A DNA stretch of 64,000 nucleotides from Sellimonas caecigallum (GTDB lineage Bacteria > Bacillota > Clostridia > Lachnospirales > Lachnospiraceae). A program made the translations under genes and the position numbers. The notes beneath the pieces are model-generated. The model had not been told where the DNA came from. It made no database searches and saw only the letters and a list, made by a program, of their open reading frames with translations. The stretch is from assembly GCF_019754295.1 (NCBI RefSeq), contig NZ_VIRV01000005.1, positions 62,001-126,000 on the forward strand, read 5' to 3'. Positions 3,785-8,179 of this stretch are shown here, piece by piece (the first letter of the stretch is position 1; each line of letters starts with the position of its first letter).

Positions 3785-4135
3785 CTACTCTTGTTTTTCA
3801 TCCAGGTCTTCGCCAAGGAAAAATACCTTGTAGTAAAGCTGAAGGGATTCCAGCAAATCTGCCTTCGTCCTCTGAAGCTCTTTGATCTTTAACGCGCTCC
3901 CGATATCGTCAAACATGGCGTCCCCCTCCTTGGAAGTTACCTCAAAGCAAAGAGAACCATCCTCTTCATATACAAGTGTGAGGATACCGCCCACATCGTG
4001 TACATAAAGCACACACATAATCTTGAGCTCATCTTTGATATGATCCGGCAGATTGTCAAAATCCGGATTTAAATAATACTTTTCTTCATATGAGTTTGCG
4101 CCACACAATACAATTTTCTCTTCGTACATATCCAT
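3785..4135 (-). CDS. DUF6145-like protein of unknown function
   Basis: A 116-residue acidic cytoplasmic protein without signal peptide or membrane segment. I associate it with DUF6145, a Lachnospiraceae family found between dusB and birA, on the basis of gene order and sequence feel rather than a search. The N-terminal half has a compact beta-rich pattern (KIMCVLYVHDVGGILTLVY); the C-terminal part is a charged helix (SALKIKELQRTKADLLESLQ) that could mediate dimerisation. Function unknown; the neighbours suggest only a housekeeping operon. Confidence 0.8.
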   Translation of the reverse strand: MDMYEEKIVLCGANSYEEKYYLNPDFDNLPDHIKDELKIMCVLYVHDVGGILTLVYEEDGSLCFEVTSKEGDAMFDDIGSALKIKELQRTKADLLESLQLYYKVFFLGEDLDEKQE

Positions 4136-4173
4136 CTCCTCTATTTTCTATTCTTACATTCTTTAGATTATTC

Positions 4174-4968
4174 TCAAATATATCCATAAACTCCTCGAAC
4201 GGAAACTTCTCCGGAATCCACCTCCCGAAGATCTCCTCCGTCGGTCTTTATGATCAAAGCTCCTGTCTTTGAAATACCGAGCGCTGTTCCTTTCCATTCA
4301 TGCCCCGGCTCCAGAACACAGACAGTCTCTCCCCTGTTCACAAGAGCAGCTTCGTACTCGTCTTTTATGAAAGCAAGCGACTGCTCTTTACAGAATTGTA
4401 TGTAAAGTTGTTCAAATTCTTCAAGGACACGACACACCAGTGTTTCCCTGGGCACGGCCTGTCCCGTCTCCAGCCAAATGGAAGTCGCCTTCTCTGCAAG
4501 CTCCTCCGGAAACTCTCTCTGGTTACAGTTGATACCAACTCCGATCAGCACATAGTCCACCGCTCCCTGTACGACACTCATTTCTGTAAGAATACCGCAG
4601 ATCTTTCGGCCCCCAATCACGAGGTCATTCGGCCACTTGATTCCAACCTCCACATGGCAGACTCTGCGTACTGCACGGGTTACAGCACATGCCATCAAAA
4701 GCGTCAGCATCGGAGCCCTGTCCGGCAGAAAATCCGGCCGCAAAAGCACTGTCATATAAATATTCTCCCCCGGCAAAGACAACCACGAACGCCCCCGTCT
4801 CCCACGCCCTGCGGTCTGCTGCTCCGCCAAAACGACCAAGCCCTCGCCGGCCCCACTCCTGGCAGCTTCCTTAACCCGCATATTTGTCGAATCTGTCTCC
4901 TCATATACAACCAACTCACGGCCAAACCTGTCTGAACAAAGCAAAAGAGAAATCAGTCCCCTCTTCAT
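4174..4968 (-). CDS. birA: Biotin--[acetyl-CoA-carboxylase] ligase
   Basis: Activates biotin with ATP to biotinyl-AMP and attaches it to the lysine of biotin carboxyl carrier proteins. Family motifs are ETDSTN, the biotinyl-AMP loop AGRGRRGRSW, KWPNDL with the catalytic Lys, and GIGINCN; the C-terminal SH3-like domain follows. The N-terminal winged helix of BirA repressors is absent, so this is a monofunctional ligase and not expected to bind DNA. ATG at 4968 is chosen; GTG at 4971 is equally well placed behind GGAGG, and a TTG at 4986 overlaps that ribosome site. Confidence 0.93.
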   Translation of the reverse strand: MKRGLISLLLCSDRFGRELVVYEETDSTNMRVKEAARSGAGEGLVVLAEQQTAGRGRRGRSWLSLPGENIYMTVLLRPDFLPDRAPMLTLLMACAVTRAVRRVCHVEVGIKWPNDLVIGGRKICGILTEMSVVQGAVDYVLIGVGINCNQREFPEELAEKATSIWLETGQAVPRETLVCRVLEEFEQLYIQFCKEQSLAFIKDEYEAALVNRGETVCVLEPGHEWKGTALGISKTGALIIKTDGGDLREVDSGEVSVRGVYGYI

Positions 4969-5030
4969 CACACAAAACGCCTCCAATCAACCACTGTGTG
5001 ATATTATAGCATACTATGTTGAAAAATAAA

Positions 5031-5068
5031 ACGGGGACGTGTTCCGACAAGTCGGAACACGTCCCCGT
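5031..5068 (-). terminator. Perfect 18-bp palindromic hairpin, terminator-like
   Basis: ACGGGGACGTGTTCCGAC and its exact complement are separated by two bases. On the minus strand it is followed by TTTTATTTTT, so it should terminate the patatin/carbamoyltransferase transcript ending at 5166. The very GC-rich perfect dyad differs from the ordinary hairpins nearby and may belong to a dispersed palindromic repeat family. Confidence 0.75.
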
Positions 5069-5165
5069 ACCTTTCGGTTGCGTTTCTTATGCAACTTTTT
5101 TATTTCTGTCGTTTTCTTTCTATTTTGATTTTTTCTTGTTTTTCATCTTGTGATCAATTTTTTCT

Positions 5166-7205
5166 TTATTCTTCCCCGAGTGTTGCGACCATAACAGCTT
5201 TTATCGTATGTAATCTGTTTTCAGCTTCGTCGAAGACAACCGATGCTTTGCTTTCGAATACATCTTCTGTTACTTCATATCCTTTTACTGCCGGGAGGCA
5301 ATGCATAAATATAGTGTTTTCTTTTTTGGTTTTTTCCATGAGTTTTCTGTTTACCTGGTATTTGTGCAGGATTGCTTTTCTTTCGGCCGTTTTTTCTTCT
5401 TCTCCCATGGAGATCCATACATCTGTATAGATAATATCTGCGCCTTCTACATCGTCCGTATTATCGCTGATGGTTATGGCTGCTCCTGATTCTTGTGCGT
5501 ATTTCTGACATGCGTTGACGAGTGAGCGCATCGGCCAGAGTTCTTTTGGTGCAATCAGTGTAAAGTCAATTCCAACTTTTACGCACCCTATCATAAGGCT
5601 GTTTGCCATATTATTTCTTCCGTCTCCGATGTATACAAATTTCAGGCCTTCAAAATATTCGAATTTTTCCTGGATCGTGAGCAGGTCTGCCAGGACTTGT
5701 GTCGGATGGTAGTCATCGGTCAGCCCGTTCCAGACAGGTACGCCGCTGTATTCTGCCAGTGCCTCTACGTGTGAATGGCGAAATCCGCGGAATTCGATGC
5801 CGTCGAACATTCTTCCTAATACTCTTGCCGTATCTTCGATACTTTCTTTATGGCCGAGCTGTATCTCATTTCCGCTCAGATAAGTGGGAAATGCTCCTTC
5901 ATCGTTGGCTGCGACAGTAAAAGCGCACCGTGTTCTTGTAGATGGTTTTTCAAATATCAGTGCTATATTTTTCCCTTCCAGCGCATGCCCTTTGATTCCC
6001 TGTTTCTTTTTCGCTTTCAGCTTTGCAGCGAGATTAACCAGATATCGGATTTCATCCGGTGTATAATCTTTCAATGTTAAAAAGCTTCTTCCTTTTAAAT
6101 TCATGTCCAAATCCTCCCTGATTTCTGCCAGCACACGAAGAAAACGCGGTATTGCTACTTTACCTTCCAGTTCCGCATATTTTTTCAGCACCAGTTCCAG
6201 CAGTTTCCTTTCTTTATAAATTTGATATTTAGGTATATGAAAATATTTTGCACCGGCTTCCAGCATGGAGAGATACAGAAGTTCATCGTCTGCCCCTAGT
6301 GGGAGTTTCAGCACAAACTTAATTTCCCGTTTTTCCTTTTCGCTGATCCCTTTCATCCGCTCTGCATACGCTTCTTTCGGATAGGAGCTGTCGATATAAT
6401 AAATGAGGCCTTTAAGTCCGTAGATCATCCGTTTCGCATCGTAATATCCGATCTTTAGATTCTGCCGGCTCCTTTTTCCGTGAAATTCCAGAATGCTTCC
6501 GAGATTGACCCTCGGGGCGATCTCACATATTTTCGTGTTTTCATCCAGCTTTACTTTTGGTTCTCTCCCAGGCCCATATATTCGGACTGTGATGATATCT
6601 TTGTATCCTCGATTTATCAACGAGTTGAGGGGTACATTATTGATAACGCCTCCGTCCAGATACGTTTTTCCATGCAGAGGTTCATTTTTAAACCCAAGCA
6701 GATATGCGCTTGCCAGAAGAAAATCTTCCAAAAGTCCTTCCGGAATATCGTCCAATGTAAGATCCAGTTCTTTCATATCAGAAAGCGAAAAGGTAAGAAG
6801 TGAGAAGTCGATCCCTGCATTTCGGATTTTCTCTTCATCGATGACTTCGTGGATCAGATTTCTAAGCGGGGTAATATCAATCCCGCCCTCCTTTACTTTT
6901 GCCCATACTTCTCTGAAAAGTTCTTTGACAGGCGTCTCTTTCTGAAACAGCCTTTCCATCCAATCATCATCAACATCCATGATTCTTGAAAATGTCATTT
7001 TTTCCCAGATGCGCTCTGCCTGATCAACGCTTCCCATGCAGATCAGAGCTCCGTTCAAAGCTCCTACCGATGTACCTGCCACTGCCTTGATCTTAATACC
7101 GGCTTCAGCCATCGCTTTCCACGCTCCAATCTGGTACGCGCCTCTTGCGCCGCCTCCGTCCAATACGAGTCCATATTCCTTTGATAAATCGATTACAGGC
7201 TTCAT
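5166..7205 (-). CDS. argF: Patatin-like phospholipase fused in frame to ornithine carbamoyltransferase
   Basis: One 679-codon frame holds two complete enzymes. Residues 1-367 are a patatin-like acyl hydrolase: oxyanion motif [10 protein letters not shown], nucleophile GTSVG (Ser46) and DGG (Asp184). Residues 368-679 are a full-length 312-residue ornithine carbamoyltransferase: STRTR (carbamoyl phosphate site), HPTQ, SMGEE (ornithine loop) and HCLP, which makes citrulline in the arginine pathway. The patatin start has AAGGAG seven bases upstream. The carbamoyltransferase part also has a strong ribosome site of its own at the junction, so a free 312-residue enzyme (5166-6104) is likely made. 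I see no frameshift or decayed motif in either half. Whether the long product accumulates cannot be told from sequence. Confidence 0.93.
6102..6118 (-). promoter_or_regulatory. argF: Internal ribosome-binding site and ATG for ornithine carbamoyltransferase
   Basis: Inside the long frame, GGGAGGA (6112-6118) precedes an ATG (6104-6102) by 7 bases. The ATG begins [11 protein letters not shown], the normal N-terminus of an ornithine carbamoyltransferase. This would allow the enzyme to be translated alone from the same mRNA. Confidence 0.75.
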
Positions 7206-7390
7206 GTCTTCACTCCTTATGCATTATATTACTCTTTTTTGCATAAAATTACAATCCATTTTTCTTGTTTTTTACAAAAAAGATCTTCGTCTGTGTTCAA
7301 CAAGCTATACTCTCTGAGTTTTCTCGGTTTTGTCTTATCACACATGTTAATCGCTATAGATTCAGTATACACCGAATTCTCACATAATGT

Positions 7391-7424
7391 AAAGGGAGCA
7401 CTTACCATGTAAAGTGCTCCCTTT
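7391..7424 (-). terminator. Terminator hairpin downstream of the SleB-like hydrolase
   Basis: A perfect 13-bp dyad (AAAGGGAGCACTT with its complement) with an 8-base loop, 45 bases past the stop at 7469. The flanking T-runs are short on both strands, so it may act bidirectionally or weakly. The rest of 7206-7468 shows no gene. Confidence 0.6.
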
Positions 7425-7468
7425 CTCTTTCTGAATAATTATACAATTTATATATTCTTTCTAACCCC

Positions 7469-8179
7469 TTAGTGGAACCAATGTGCCCCAATTTTGATTC
7501 CTGTATTATTTCCATCCCCGAAATGAAGTGCATTTCCAACCGGGCTTACTCCGGCAAGCGCTTCGCGTGCAGCCTGATAACAAGACGCCGGAATGTTTCC
7601 GGATGCAAGGACTCTGTCAAGCTTTCCTGTCATGGCTGGTCCAAACTGTCCTCTCTGATAAATAACTCCTCTGATAGAACTTGCATATCCGGCATTCAAT
7701 CGGTTCATAACCACAGCTCCCACTGCAACCTGCCCCTGGTACGGCTGGTTTCCTGCCTCACAATAAATCAGTGCTGCAAGAAGATTTTCATCTCCTGCCT
7801 GAGCTGCTTGGGCAGCTTTTTGAGCCTTCGCAGCTTCCGCGGCTTTTCTTGCTTCTTCGGCCTTTCTCGCCTCTTCGGCTTTTCTTGCCTCCTCAGCTTT
7901 TCTTGCCTCCTCAGCTTTTCGAATCTCTTCTGCTTTCTTTACTGCTTCATTTCTTTTCGTCTTTATCTGTTCCGTATATCCGGAAACTGTCTGGGATAAC
8001 GCCTGTACATTCTCAGCCGCTGCTGCTTCCACAACAGCTCCTTGAGGCGCTTCTGCTATAAGTCCTCCGTCTGCGGCAATAACCTGTACATTCACACTTG
8101 CCGTGAGAACTACCGCAGAAAGAATTCCTGCCAGCATTCCTTTCTCAAAATGTCTTTTATGACCAAAATTGGGTTTCAT
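7469..8179 (-). CDS. Secreted cell-wall hydrolase, SleB/Hydrolase_2 family
   Basis: A 236-residue exported protein. A signal peptide (basic start, hydrophobic GMLAGILSAVVLTASVNV, cleavage after VIAA) is followed by an alanine-rich region and a coiled coil of repeated KAEEAR units (about residues 78-115). The C-terminal domain from about residue 130 is SleB-like (NLLAALIYCEAGNQPYQGQ with the catalytic Glu, GAVVMNRL, FGPAMTGKL), expected to cleave peptidoglycan glycan strands. Start at 8179 is fixed by AAGGAGG 7 bases upstream; the frame extends to 8266 without a ribosome site. The call as cortex-lytic versus vegetative remodelling enzyme is open. Confidence 0.9.
   Translation of the reverse strand: MKPNFGHKRHFEKGMLAGILSAVVLTASVNVQVIAADGGLIAEAPQGAVVEAAAAENVQALSQTVSGYTEQIKTKRNEAVKKAEEIRKAEEARKAEEARKAEEARKAEEARKAAEAAKAQKAAQAAQAGDENLLAALIYCEAGNQPYQGQVAVGAVVMNRLNAGYASSIRGVIYQRGQFGPAMTGKLDRVLASGNIPASCYQAAREALAGVSPVGNALHFGDGNNTGIKIGAHWFH

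Follow-up and report, generated by a model that had tools for sequence, protein, structure and literature searches.

Can a single bacterial reading frame encode a phospholipase joined to a central enzyme of amino-acid synthesis and also deliver the second enzyme in free form? This question is raised by a locus of Sellimonas caecigallum (Lachnospiraceae) within the stretch of 64,000 nucleotides that we analysed, hereafter the window, where a patatin-like gene continues without a stop into a gene for ornithine carbamoyltransferase (OTC). Fusion genes often join steps of one pathway; to our knowledge, no link between phospholipase and citrulline synthesis is known. A preliminary description of the locus offered two readings: either a recent loss of the patatin stop codon had created a dual-product gene, or the long protein is real.

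The fused reading frame and its setting

The fused gene occupies the minus strand, running from position 7205 down to 5166 as a single frame of 679 codons with no internal stops (Table 1). Pfam profiles placed the patatin domain (PF01734) at residues 13-196 (E 5.2e-30; 105.5 bits against a cut-off of 27.7) and the two OTC domains at residues 373-513 (OTCace_N, E 5.4e-49) and 519-674 (OTCace, E 1.4e-58). Additionally, the OTC half scored 437.5 bits against the NCBIfam equivalog model orni_carb_tr (TIGR00658; cut-off 280.85). GGGARG, GTSVG and DGG in the patatin half match the motifs that we take to define patatins (GGGxRG, GxSxG and DG(G/A)), and STRTR, HPTQ, HCLP and SMG in the OTC half are those that we take to define OTCs; both sets have catalytic meaning. 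Each motif is kept in 34/34 fusions (the patatin set as GGGxRG, GxSxG and DGG), with the SMG of two of them (L160 and L162) taken from the alignment where the motif script had matched elsewhere. At the joint, the gene reads AGGGAGGATTTGGAC ATG, coding REDLD-M, with the ATG at 6104-6102. The single frame, the above-cut-off Pfam and TIGR00658 scores and the bases read at the joint bear out the preliminary claims that a patatin and a complete OTC share one frame without a stop between them, with their motifs present, and that GGGAGGA and ATG mark the junction. The gene is a predicted patatin-like phospholipase joined in frame to a predicted ornithine carbamoyltransferase.

Table 1. Features of the patatin-OTC locus and its downstream neighbour, by position in the window
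Feature	Positions	Strand	Evidence
birA-like biotin-protein ligase gene without HTH domain, downstream of the fused gene	4174..4986	-	PF03099 and PF02237 above cut-off
Terminator-like hairpin between fused gene and birA, 17 pairs (11 G-C), T-rich tail	5031..5068	-	Pattern scan
Fused patatin-OTC reading frame, 679 aa	5166..7205	-	One open reading frame; 34 non-identical homologues
OTC moiety, residues 368-679; predicted complete enzyme if begun at M368	5166..6104	-	Profile, fold and copy-number search
Putative internal start codon ATG of free OTC (M368)	6102..6104	-	33 ATG and 1 GTG in 34 fusions
Patatin-like phospholipase moiety including its C-terminal region, residues 1-367	6105..7205	-	PF01734 at residues 13-196; match to PlpD (5fqu)
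Internal Shine-Dalgarno-like purine run AGGGAGGA in the last patatin codons	6112..6119	-	Purine conservation in 34/34

An AlphaFold2 monomer model of the fusion (mean pLDDT 85.8, pTM 0.56) predicts two domains with an uncertain joint (pLDDT 64 at residues 361-370) and gives no patatin-OTC interface. Among solved structures, the best sequence match of the patatin (query residues 1-361) was PlpD (PDB 5fqu, E 5.7e-12). The window patatin resembles bacterial patatin-like phospholipases of this kind in its PF01734 match above cut-off and in the three motifs conserved throughout the fusions, and differs from them in continuing in frame into OTC. It also has no counterpart of the outer-membrane barrel of PlpD. 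For the OTC half, 1vlv from Thermotoga maritima was among the best Foldseek matches (TM 0.94, target-normalised), and the 50 matches listed were all carbamoyltransferases, a capped list on which patatin matches do not appear for that reason. Its TIGR00658 score, its signature motifs and the fold match to 1vlv liken it to the anabolic OTC ArgF, from which it differs by the 367-residue phospholipase in front when the upstream start is used.

The fusion is the sole OTC match in the window's genome at E 1e-20, and a 27% match elsewhere in that genome is probably another carbamoyltransferase. argG and argJ scored over the cut-off in this genome, an argC-like semialdehyde dehydrogenase gene adjoins argG, and no match to arginine deiminase (arcA) was found there. 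Based on these genes and the absent deiminase match, we consider the OTC to be biosynthetic; a catabolic OTC was ruled out on the latter ground. Beyond the carriers of the scan of named genomes, 28 fusion genomes were searched for OTC copies at E 1e-20, and in 26 of them the fused copy was the sole match; because several of the 28 assemblies are incomplete, this may be wrong for some of them. A second, partial OTC match occurs in G129. The sole fusion with a GTG internal start (L042, in G271) belongs to a genome that has a full second, free OTC on contig C33; this is one case, from a 77%-complete assembly.

The birA-like ligase that follows the fused gene gave no HTH match in a profile search; in many relatives, as in the window, BirA comes after OTC. 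The scan that detected the hairpin between the two genes gave 8 terminator-like sites in 4000-7600 versus 2.6 expected. On the other side, SPFH (Band 7) and NfeD genes stand directly upstream of the patatin in many Lachnospiraceae (L035, L037, L039, L052, L054, L119-L126 and others). A same-strand SPFH gene precedes the patatin in at least 16 of 34 OTC fusions and at least 31 of 37 split neighbours, counts taken from flanks of different lengths. This arrangement suggests an older membrane-linked operon, and a membrane role of the patatin fits with it, though not in the window's genus, where no SPFH gene was found upstream of the patatin within the flanks of the three loci. The SPFH/NfeD operon was therefore rejected as part of the fusion system.

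Distribution and history of the fusion

Duplicate removal left 34 distinct patatin-OTC fusions, whose carriers span 18 genus groups (carriers of the named-genome scan lie outside this count). The preliminary description proposed looking for the 679-residue protein in relatives, and the same fusion was found at 83% identity in both other genomes searched in the window's genus. Across the family, this patatin was matched at E 1e-50 or better in 74 of 397 genomes. In the 70 of these that were examined (G197, G161, G305 and G206 fall outside), it is fused to OTC in 20 and to BirA in one; a separate OTC lies directly downstream in 34, BirA directly downstream in one, and neither by the criteria used in 14. 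The scan of named genomes covered 57 loci, of which 12 are fused, 4 have an adjacent OTC and 41 have no OTC nearby. Named carriers include uncultured Sellimonas, Faecalicatena contorta, Faecalicatena faecalis and Lachnoclostridium sp. An181. The uncultured Sellimonas sequence is identical to that of G002 in the window's genus. Within genus g147, which includes a genome matching Faecalimonas umbilicata, 8 of 10 genomes carry patatin-OTC, one patatin-BirA and one the split genes. In 37 non-identical split relatives, the two genes are neighbours, with gaps of -1 to 168 bases.

Because the fusion has 34 non-identical homologues, three of them in single-contig assemblies (G348, G110 and G257), and occurs in several named isolates, it is neither chance nor an assembly slip. 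One candidate for an independent second fusion, a listed 740-residue frame in G034, was rejected: the junction (L006, L150) holds separate genes, with a patatin of 391 residues and the OTC about 100 bases on. The locus survey skipped L001-L007, L011, L159 and L174 (most duplicate other loci, and L002 and L005 have no patatin match), together with loci lacking a patatin match in the sequence examined.

For phylogenetic analysis, 124 patatins were kept after dropping L169-L173 and L175 (repeat genomes), L109, L112, L113 and L116 (short or weak) and 8 duplicates. A first tree used 92 of these, leaving out 32 distant patatins without OTC, and placed the fusions in one clade of 38 (SH-aLRT 100) made up of 34 OTC fusions, one BirA fusion and three split members. 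The same clade was supported 100/100 on a more careful tree of 46 of the 124, the set that also served for the patatin topology tests. Of the 47 family members examined outside the clade, 33 carry OTC as a separate adjacent gene, indicating that patatin-OTC adjacency probably predates the fusion. The proposed recent loss of the patatin stop finds no support in view of the spread of this clade, which is old and reaches across 18 genus groups. Nor are the genes always separate in relatives, as the preliminary description had also considered; inside the clade this holds for three members of 38. As judged by sequence comparison, the patatin-OTC fusion gene is old and conserved.

A patatin topology test addressed whether the split members are ancestral or reverted: placing all fused members in a single clade was 17.8 log units worse, short of rejection (p 0.097). 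At the joint of L054 (G102), which is split, the sequence is GGGAGGATTAGAAGATG, against GGGAGGATTTGGACATG in the window. The two genes of this relative are already in register, and all that parts them is a single stop located two codons ahead of the ATG.

The fused OTCs are of two types, 309-312 residues (19 fusions) and 326-331 residues (15 fusions), which lie far apart on an OTC tree of 97 sequences. OTCs of 309-313 and of 326-332 residues are both seen at the patatin-adjacent place across Lachnospiraceae. Constraining all fused OTCs together was rejected (p 8.7e-27; topology test on 52 of the 97), as was holding the short-type fusions together versus the long-type on the patatin tree (p 2.5e-10). 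Since both groupings are rejected, either the OTC was swapped behind the same patatin or fusion took place more than once at the same joint. At the level of the family, the data suggest repeated in-place replacement of argF across Lachnospiraceae.

OTC is not the only partner. G148 (L051:1501-3384) gave no OTC match at E 1e-20; its patatin instead runs in frame into a biotin-protein ligase, so that Patatin, PF03099 and PF02237 share one frame of 627 residues. The ligase is a homologue of the window's downstream birA-like gene, and an SD-like AGGAAGGG stands before a GTG roughly where OTC begins in the relatives of this gene. On the tree, the sister of this patatin is L160, which carries an OTC fusion. 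G007 (L052:479-2571) likewise lacks an OTC match at E 1e-20, and its patatin ends in a stop codon that overlaps the ATG of an HTH-containing BirA. The simplest account is that OTC loss brought BirA next to the patatin.

The internal start and selection at the joint

Positions -15 to -8 from the OTC start are all purine in 34/34 fusions. The third base of codon -4 is likewise G in 34/34, compared with 16.1 expected from each gene's codon usage, and the residue at this codon varies (E in 13, K in 14, R in 6 and G in 1). The calculated anti-SD duplex energy at the internal start is -5.3 kcal/mol or lower in 34/34, with a mean of -7.7; the start of the patatin itself averages -8.7, and other in-frame ATGs average -3.1. 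A match of at least 4 bases to the SD reference is present at 34/34 internal starts versus about 37% of 699 other in-frame ATGs. In single genes the signal is weaker: the energy of the internal SD lies below the shuffle mean in 27/34 fusions and beats synonymous shuffles at p below 0.05 in just 6/34, and the internal start outranks every other in-frame ATG in just 9/34. The 34 sequences are related and so not independent, yet patatin dS values above 1 were obtained for 7 of the 10 pairs compared (undefined in one). Taken across the 34 fusions, this putative internal start and its SD appear to be conserved beyond the need of the protein.

Both halves show the substitution pattern of strong constraint, with dN/dS of 0.03-0.10 for the patatin in 9 of 10 pairs (the tenth is undefined) and 0.008-0.051 for the OTC in 10/10. 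In several pairs the linker evolves more quickly than either half, reaching a dN/dS of 0.75 over 20 codons, and in two pairs its value is 0. To ask whether selection keeps the fusion, we compared stop gains seen and expected over 8 pairs, which, after three values had been capped at 2, together hold 9.4 synonymous changes per site. In the last 7 codons outside the SD bases, 0 stop gains were seen and 6.05 expected; with the SD bases included the expectation is 12.7, although the SD itself constrains those bases. The zero is partly built in because both members of every pair were known fusions. When the three split members are counted as stop gains, P lies at 0.01-0.15 over the last 7 codons and at 0.0015-0.05 over the last 14, ranges that depend on the divergence given to the branches of these members. 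The evidence that selection keeps the fusion itself, beyond the internal start, is suggestive only.

Explanations for the fused gene

We favour the reading that this is an old dual-product gene whose two products, patatin-OTC and free OTC, might share a trimer, and put its probability at roughly 55%. Ribosomes from the patatin ATG would read through into OTC to give the 679-residue protein; provided that the patatin is translated, the open frame implies as much. A second set of ribosomes would start at M368 by means of the SD in the last patatin codons and make an ordinary 312-residue OTC for arginine biosynthesis, a product that we infer because the internal start is conserved at the nucleotide level. 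It is very likely that both products are made. The two readings first offered are thus not mutually exclusive, and both are probably true; the dual-product one gains from an internal start kept in 34/34 fusions, a support that comes from comparing sequences.

OTC works as a trimer, and for this reason the long form may join free OTC subunits to give mixed trimers with one or a few patatin heads. Such trimers would fix the amount or place of the lipase relative to the arginine enzyme. We hold this part of the reading tentatively, as a plausible idea at less than even odds. A fine-tuned patatin-OTC interface is disfavoured because OTC types have been exchanged and BirA substitutes for OTC in G148. 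The three split members of the clade and the fast linker in several pairs count against the dual-product explanation as a whole.

The alternative that survives best is one of expression coupling or drift, in which the patatin stop was lost and the gene behind it retained a start of its own. The fused protein would then be a by-product that is tolerated and has no joint function, its passenger being whatever lies downstream. The swapping of OTC types behind the same patatin, the fusion to BirA in a genome without an OTC match (G148), the often fast-changing linker and the close spacing of patatin and OTC in the 37 split relatives all agree with this account. It is harder to reconcile with the shortage of stops near the joint, which seem rarer than expected if harmless (suggestive, with the P of 0.01-0.15 in the last 7 codons), and with the split relatives, which evidently manage coupling without fusion. 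We regard it as a serious contender that is nevertheless rather unlikely.

The long bifunctional protein could instead be the sole product, with the internal ATG and SD as relics. The frame is indeed open, and aspartate carbamoyltransferase in CAD, a trimeric enzyme behind large N-terminal partner enzymes of the same pathway, tolerates a partner of this kind. The window gene resembles CAD in having a carbamoyltransferase with a large N-terminal partner and differs in that the CAD partners share its pathway. Relics would scarcely keep the G of codon -4 and the all-purine run in every fusion despite patatin dS above 1 in most pairs, making this explanation quite improbable. A shade less credible still is a long protein that is made and then cut at the linker into two ordinary enzymes. 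The low model confidence at residues 361-370 and the poor conservation of the joint would suit cleavage; by eye, the linker columns of the alignment contain no invariant cleavage-like motif, and internal initiation explains free OTC without cutting. Finally, an assembly artefact or a very recent mutation of a single strain, for which we found no supporting point, is refuted by the number of non-identical fusions and their presence in single-contig assemblies and named isolates.

A dual-product gene as favoured here would have relatives among known systems. The endolysin LysIME-EF1 uses an internal start so that one full-length protein assembles with three extra CBDs (PMC7098653), and the injectisome protein YscQ, also with an internal start, requires YscQC (PMC4295842). 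Both resemble the window gene in having an internal start within a larger gene, and in both the C-terminal part joins the full-length protein. They differ in that their free part is a binding or ring domain; the window gene would release a whole metabolic enzyme. In Rpn proteins with an intragenic antitoxin, a C-terminal part is likewise reported to be translated separately from the same gene (PMC10327210), following a toxin-antitoxin logic that nothing at the window locus suggests. The device is known from LysIME-EF1 and YscQ, and the phospholipase-OTC pairing was not met in the literature searched: among open-licence papers, none was found whose title concerns a patatin fused to OTC or argF.

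In its most far-reaching form, the favoured reading would have a clade of Lachnospiraceae make citrulline on mixed OTC trimers in which some subunits have phospholipase heads, so that the turnover of membrane lipids would be coupled to the synthesis of arginine. The patatin would then be a modular N-terminal head that was kept when a distant OTC type replaced the earlier one, and that joined BirA in the lineage from which OTC disappeared. We consider this extended picture speculative and, as a whole, doubtful.

In at least 18 genus groups, one frame holds a lipase together with a central enzyme of amino-acid metabolism, with the start signal of the second enzyme kept inside the first. For annotation, the fused gene is the only OTC match in 26 of the 28 genomes checked, and mislabelling it could hide arginine synthesis or a second product. 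The gene family offers a clean natural case, in culturable gut commensals, for how operon genes fuse while keeping a free product.
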